Part shown: positions 30,885 to 32,255 of the stretch, in pieces
Position numbering within the stretch: position 1 is the first letter of the stretch
Layout of the letters: each line of letters starts with the position of its first letter
Assembly: GCA_025350145.1 (NCBI GenBank)
Contig: JANXYH010000109.1
Coordinates: forward strand, 40,578 to 104,577
Direction of reading: 5' to 3'
Origin: Burkholderiales bacterium
GTDB lineage: Bacteria; Pseudomonadota; Gammaproteobacteria; Burkholderiales; Burkholderiaceae_C
DNA: 64,000 nucleotides
Made by a program: the position numbers and the translations under genes
The notes under the pieces: model-generated
The model's input: the letters and a program-made list of their open reading frames with translations, nothing else
What the model was told of the DNA's origin: nothing
The model's database searches: none

Positions 30885-32255
<1,371 letters not shown>

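Follow-up and report, generated by a model that had tools for sequence, protein, structure and literature searches.

The adenylosuccinate synthetase gene (purA) of this Burkholderiales bacterium contains an in-frame amber codon, which raises the question of whether the living organism has lost PurA, makes it across a stop codon, or never carried the stop at all. We analysed the whole stretch of 64,000 nucleotides (hereafter, the window), which is located on a contig of 104,577 bases; the assembly is a draft of 4,561,589 bases in 211 contigs, with a completeness of 98.04% and a contamination of 0.63%. The features relevant to the question are the following:

30885..32246, minus strand: purA (adenylosuccinate synthetase) frame of 453 residues, interrupted codon included, ending in TGA
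31530..31532, minus strand: TAG in the purA frame, codon 239; CAG or CAA (Gln) in relatives
31533..32246, minus strand: N-terminal piece of purA, 238 aa, PF00709 positions 1-217
30885..31523, minus strand: C-terminal piece of purA, 212 aa if restarted at the TTG 31523-31521, PF00709 positions 221-416
32273..33436, minus strand: hisZ, ATP phosphoribosyltransferase regulatory subunit, without inside stop, upstream neighbour of purA
30343..30864, minus strand: phosphoribosyltransferase (PF00156), 173 aa, without inside stop, downstream neighbour of purA
33710..37241, minus strand: hflC, hflK and hflX, without inside stops
27811..30096, minus strand: rnr, ribonuclease R, without inside stop

On the minus strand, the purA frame begins with an ATG at 32246 and terminates with the TGA 30887-30885, the TAG 31532-31530 being its sole interruption. 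The original prediction had placed an amber codon at codon 239 of a frame that opens again down to 30885, and both the reading of the ORFs and the two PF00709 halves confirmed this. Out of the 416 positions of the PF00709 profile, the first 217 are matched before the TAG and positions 221-416 after it, and the NCBIfam profiles agree; since the halves match consecutively, we are dealing with one purA gene interrupted by one codon. Taken across the stop, the match to PF00709 is full-length, spanning positions 1-416 with 576.6 bits and one TAG within; the family is that of PurA (PF00709, NF002223, TIGR00184). Among the named relatives with the best matches are Paucibacter, Pelomonas, Aquabacterium, Azohydromonas and Rubrivivax. 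All ten relatives compared (two of them pieced together from adjacent stretches) share the gene order hflX-hflK-hflC-hisZ-purA-phosphoribosyltransferase-rnr. Thus, the window purA resembles the rest of the family in the consecutive match of its two halves and in the kept gene order, and differs from it in having an invariant Gln codon replaced by TAG.

The comparison of the codon 239 site in 110 purA loci revealed a Gln codon in 108 of them (65 CAG and 43 CAA) and a TAG only in the window's own copy, while the motif search gave no match at that site in the remaining locus (L128). These data agree with the idea that the TAG lies one transition away from CAG. At the protein level, all 104 aligned relatives carry Gln in this column; the set counts at least one contig twice (as L032 and L150). 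From the whole-genome search on 39 relatives, 37 resulted in harboring a full-length purA match, and no match had an inside stop; G018 has a shorter PurA-like gene as its sole PF00709 match, and the purA of G020 is matched by the profile in two pieces within one open frame. This last gene (L212, 469-1986, minus strand) is a single frame of 506 codons in which Pfam positions 110-141 are unmatched, a gap resembling two compensating frameshifts or a local replacement. A second search, on all 20 available relatives of the same genus, did not retrieve an inside stop in any listed match; in the wider order, purA was matched in 392 of 399 genomes (the window's own included), with no inside stop among the matches listed. 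The closest protein, P0001, is 93% identical to the window PurA and has Gln at the site. No purA copy from the same species was recognised in the protein collection, which is clustered at 90%, so that closer copies could hide in the 14-member cluster of P0001; the plasmid collection gave purA matches only 60-90% identical.

The residue of codon 239 aligns to chain position 225 of the structure 3hid, and the match to the E. coli structure 1ade covers chain residues 1-431, one residue fewer than that to 3hid, which fits residue 224. The proposed equivalence with E. coli Gln224 is therefore in line with these matches; presumably, this is the residue that contacts IMP. The literature search did not retrieve any paper combining adenylosuccinate synthetase with Gln224.

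The sequence on the two sides of the stop was then compared with that of the relatives. At the 130 columns without variation in the 104 relatives (67 before the TAG and 63 after it), the window PurA shows no private substitution, a test of low power given that the relatives' own values have a median of 0, a mean of 0.20 and a maximum of 4; these 130 columns are kept, and the invariant Gln column holds the stop. The dN/dS values versus the 14 nearest relatives with available DNA are low both after the TAG (0.12-0.27) and before it (0.07-0.25), as expected from the claim that the part past the stop is under purifying selection. The ratio of dN after the TAG to dN before it is 1.35, which falls within the range of 24 relatives (0.93-1.68, a set counting both L032 and L150, which are one contig) and exceeds 1 in 20 of these 24 too. 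Plain differences between the window PurA and P0001 amount to 16 after the TAG and 17 before it. When differences private to one sequence are counted against three close proteins, the window PurA has five after the TAG and none before it, versus three and three for P0001. Compared with L032, the nearest relative with DNA, it has 41 residue differences after the TAG and 21 before it, none of them at invariant columns. The statement that everything after the stop is perfectly conserved thus holds for the invariant columns, and is too strong for the C-terminal part as a whole. This slightly faster change after the TAG may represent a weak hint that the stop might be real. On the other hand, the gene does not clearly look like a decaying pseudogene, as it has no further lesion, unchanged invariant columns and a low dN/dS. 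Judged from the Gln codon of the relatives and from this conservation, the lesion would be either young or not real, just as the original prediction had suggested in calling it very recent or an artefact.

A stop codon at an invariant position would be harmless if TAG were reassigned or suppressed in the whole genome. We scored the stops of 447 coding frames in 624,456 bases (13.7% of the genome), obtaining 382 TGA, 43 TAG (that of purA counted) and 22 TAA; hence, TAG ends about 10% of the scored frames. The same sample (the window plus sampled contigs) contains 117 copies of the tetranucleotide CTAG, which amounts to a strong avoidance (observed/expected ratio of 0.20); the purA TAG creates one CTAG (CCTAGG). 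Coding in the same frame continues past the stop at 28 of the 447 frame ends, and purA represents the only clear interior stop, with a single family running across it. Six other continuations have no ATG within 20 codons, and their flanking families differ or a family is present on one side only, so that they look like gene boundaries; the other 21, with an ATG within 13 codons, were judged by eye only. The method detected 908 of 1197 simulated interior stops.

As for the decoding apparatus, RF1 is intact in the assembly. A tRNA able to decode amber codons, whose search had been proposed for this genome, was not retrieved: no CUA anticodon is present among the 41 tRNAs found (Rfam matches, with anticodons assigned by ARAGORN), a set that is probably incomplete, with Ile-GAT, Ala-TGC and Ser-TGA, all expected in a bacterial set, missing from the list. 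A pattern search for CUA tRNAs gave two matches, one being a tRNA-Arg (TCT) and the other containing no tRNA according to ARAGORN. A genome-wide recoding of TAG, in favor of which there is nothing beyond the purA codon, is hence hardly credible in the face of 43 frames ended by TAG, no other clear interior TAG in the 13.7% sample, a release factor in place and no suppressor tRNA by either search. Reassignment of TAG to Gln in particular was rejected, since we found neither further interior TAGs, nor an avoidance of TAG, nor a change in RF1, nor a CUA tRNA.

A real TAG might instead be tolerated at this single site, if readthrough at a low rate inserted Gln by means of the near-cognate tRNA-Gln (UUG) and yielded some full-length, wild-type PurA. 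The only tRNA-Gln found is the UUG one, and PMC5289835 states, citing Nilsson and Ryden-Aulin 2003, that tRNA-Gln misreads UAG in E. coli. Moreover, Gln is the invariant residue, so misreading would restore exactly the missing one, and the part after the TAG has a low dN/dS; a young lesion, however, would appear constrained anyway. Basal readthrough is low, which counts against it here, and RF1 is intact. The two features expected from a programmed readthrough were not observed either: the stop is not conserved, no stop being found at the site in the relatives searched, and the RNA 3' of the TAG is no more structured than shuffled sequences (z -0.15, versus 0.49 for the control fold at L032). 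On these grounds, we consider tolerance by readthrough unlikely. The more demanding version of it, in which the amber codon is real and fixed, PurA is made through the misreading of UAG as Gln by the single tRNA-Gln (UUG), and the AMP supply is throttled, is more improbable still.

According to another scenario, ribosomes would end at the TAG and restart at a TTG two codons further on, and the two halves would assemble into a split PurA. An in-frame TTG is indeed present at 31523-31521, with AGGG just before it. In the best 120 C-terminal matches of the protein collection, 112 hold the Gln motif, five (the window's own included) begin at the restart residue and three do neither; the five are P0241 (the window's own), P0272, P0246, P0298 and P0338. 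Among the best 120 N-terminal matches, 84 hold the motif, one (P0176, 235 aa) ends directly before the Gln and 35 do neither. However, the contigs behind P0246, P0298, P0338 and P0176 are 970-1184 bases long, so that a cut at the contig end is a simpler cause, and gene callers often set the start of cut genes at particular M, V or L residues. In addition, the split product would be devoid of Gln-Gly-Thr, and several relatives that have no stop also use TTG for this Leu. For these reasons, a restart appears very improbable. P0272, a PurA C-terminal record of 218 aa with the same starting residue, comprises 34 sequences, the longest contig being of 48,032 bases; it could be a gene truncated where its contig ends, or else another purA that is split at this very site. 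Neither readthrough nor restart found positive support, and the sequence would look the same after a recent lesion of whatever origin.

If PurA were truly lost, the cell would depend on a second enzyme or on an external source of AMP. The search for a second purA in the whole genome, which had been proposed as a check, did not retrieve any in the 4.56 Mb assembly, where PF00709 has one match only; similarly, the 260 bases around the TAG match once in the assembly, and no contig carries an alternative allele of the site. A backup PurA/PurZ-like gene was considered as a candidate and rejected, as it is present in G003, G016 and G018, of the same genus, and absent from this genome. These shorter PurA-like genes (L209, 305-1372, minus strand, from G018; L210, 3-1463, plus strand, from G003; L211, 2-1408, plus strand, from G016) match the NF003295 PurA and the PurZ models, both below the cut-off, and the N-terminal loop of L209 reads GSEGKGK in place of GDEGKGK.

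Concerning the salvage of purines, no adenine phosphoribosyltransferase (apt) was found in this assembly by a search that, in the control genomes, gave a match in 13 out of 14, above the curated cut-off in six. The gene is patchy in the genus: seven of the 20 relatives from this genus have strong matches, and G009 and G007, which are the nearest in purA, have none. In G006, a same-genus draft genome, the apt gene (G006:C269:5722-6225) was flagged with a single in-frame TAA, which makes it a further purine gene with a lone stop in a draft. As the original prediction had stated, the neighbouring PF00156 phosphoribosyltransferase would presumably not replace PurA.

The genome encodes six PfkB-family proteins, one of which (C33, at L203; only the matched part of 260 aa was compared) has as its closest PDB entries 3b1r and 3b1n, "Ribokinase, putative" (E about 1.5e-80), followed by the adenosine kinases 4o1g and 2pkf (E about 6e-38). 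We take 3b1n to be a Burkholderia nucleoside kinase of broad specificity. The best NCBIfam match of C33 is a nucleoside kinase model at 77.8 bits, far below the model cut-off of 450; by homology, this protein might turn adenosine into AMP. Because no apt was found, adenine would probably not rescue a purA null; adenosine would instead be the compound predicted to do so. The original prediction had assumed that external adenine would sustain the cell, and in this respect the gene content points the other way. Elsewhere, purA knock-outs of Thermus failed to grow when adenine was left out (PMC8100143), and an E. coli purA deletion is reported to have had a doubling time of 29.5 min versus 26.0 (PMC13131326).

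These data bear on the possibility that the TAG is a real, recent nonsense mutation inactivating PurA, the sequenced population or clone then needing adenosine or some other supply of AMP, or the mutation being transient and reverting when purines run out. In its favor are the single transition in an otherwise well-kept gene, the PfkB nucleoside kinase-like protein (with its NCBIfam score far below the cut-off), the mild effect of the E. coli deletion and the hint of quicker change past the TAG. A close precedent also exists: an E. coli purB mutant with Gln240 changed from CAG to TAG was enriched with a quinolone, was unstable and frequently reverted (PMC13131326). The two cases share the pathway and the codon change, by which a needed gene acquires an amber codon in place of Gln; that mutant, however, was isolated under drug enrichment and its reversion was seen, whereas the window purA is one assembled sequence. 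The missing apt, the lack of private changes at invariant columns, the genome size of 4.56 Mb and the fact that the exact split product was not seen from a second contig stand against a real mutation, which we rank second, as a less likely alternative. A 5-methylcytosine hot spot was also tried as a source of the transition. With a C at the site, that C would be the inner one of a CCAGG, and the genome has two C5 methyltransferases as candidates for its methylation; CCAGG is not depleted (observed/expected 1.03), and the hot spot stays a guess.

The reading that we favor, with a probability of about 0.5, is that the TAG is a wrong consensus base, or an unrepresentative read variant, in the draft assembly. 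In that case, the purA of the living cells would be intact, with Gln at codon 239. In favor of an error are the single purA with its kept conserved residues, the lack of a detected backup enzyme, apt or amber-reading tRNA, the relatives searched being free of inside stops, and the isolation of the lesion in the sampled part of the genome. With the genes found, a cell lacking a working PurA would presumably obtain AMP only from an external supply of AMP or adenosine, and a lasting truncation is therefore less likely than one wrong base in 4.56 million. Base-level consensus errors occur in draft assemblies, and the purA TAG resembles them in being a lone single-base lesion within a gene that is well kept elsewhere; a literature search for stop errors in draft genomes retrieved no paper. 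The exact 212-residue C-terminal piece is present in the protein collection as P0241, which derives from one contig of 104,577 bases; as this is its only source, no independent assembly confirms the lesion.

Against a consensus error, the assembly appears clean. Aligning the window with the reference proteins of three relatives, 122 of 164 were placed, covering 55,269 of the 64,000 bases, with one conserved interior stop (that of purA) and without any frameshift; of two further stops that were flagged, one is at a gene end and one ahead of a start codon. Errors are therefore uncommon, and one error in the sample would correspond to about 1e-4 per base, a rate biased upward by the fact that the window was chosen for the lesion. 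C-to-T transitions are the commonest kind of true mutation, which also counts against an error, as may the faster change after the TAG (five versus zero private differences, and the excess from L032). We gave the missing bypass and the youth of the lesion more weight than the general cleanness of the assembly, and it is on this basis that an error is favored over a real mutation. As purA is otherwise well kept, a base-calling error is the most likely explanation, or else a very recent mutation, and the TAG is most likely not a feature of the living organism.

In conclusion, the purA TAG most likely does not represent a new kind of biology. If it were confirmed and stable, with normal growth, it would provide an uncommon example from nature of a needed gene whose expression passes through a leaky stop. 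If the mutation is real, the lack of a detected apt together with the nucleoside kinase homologue leads to a clear prediction, that is, adenosine would rescue the cells and adenine would not. If it is an error, it calls for caution in metabolic predictions from draft genomes, where one base makes a purine prototroph an auxotroph on paper.
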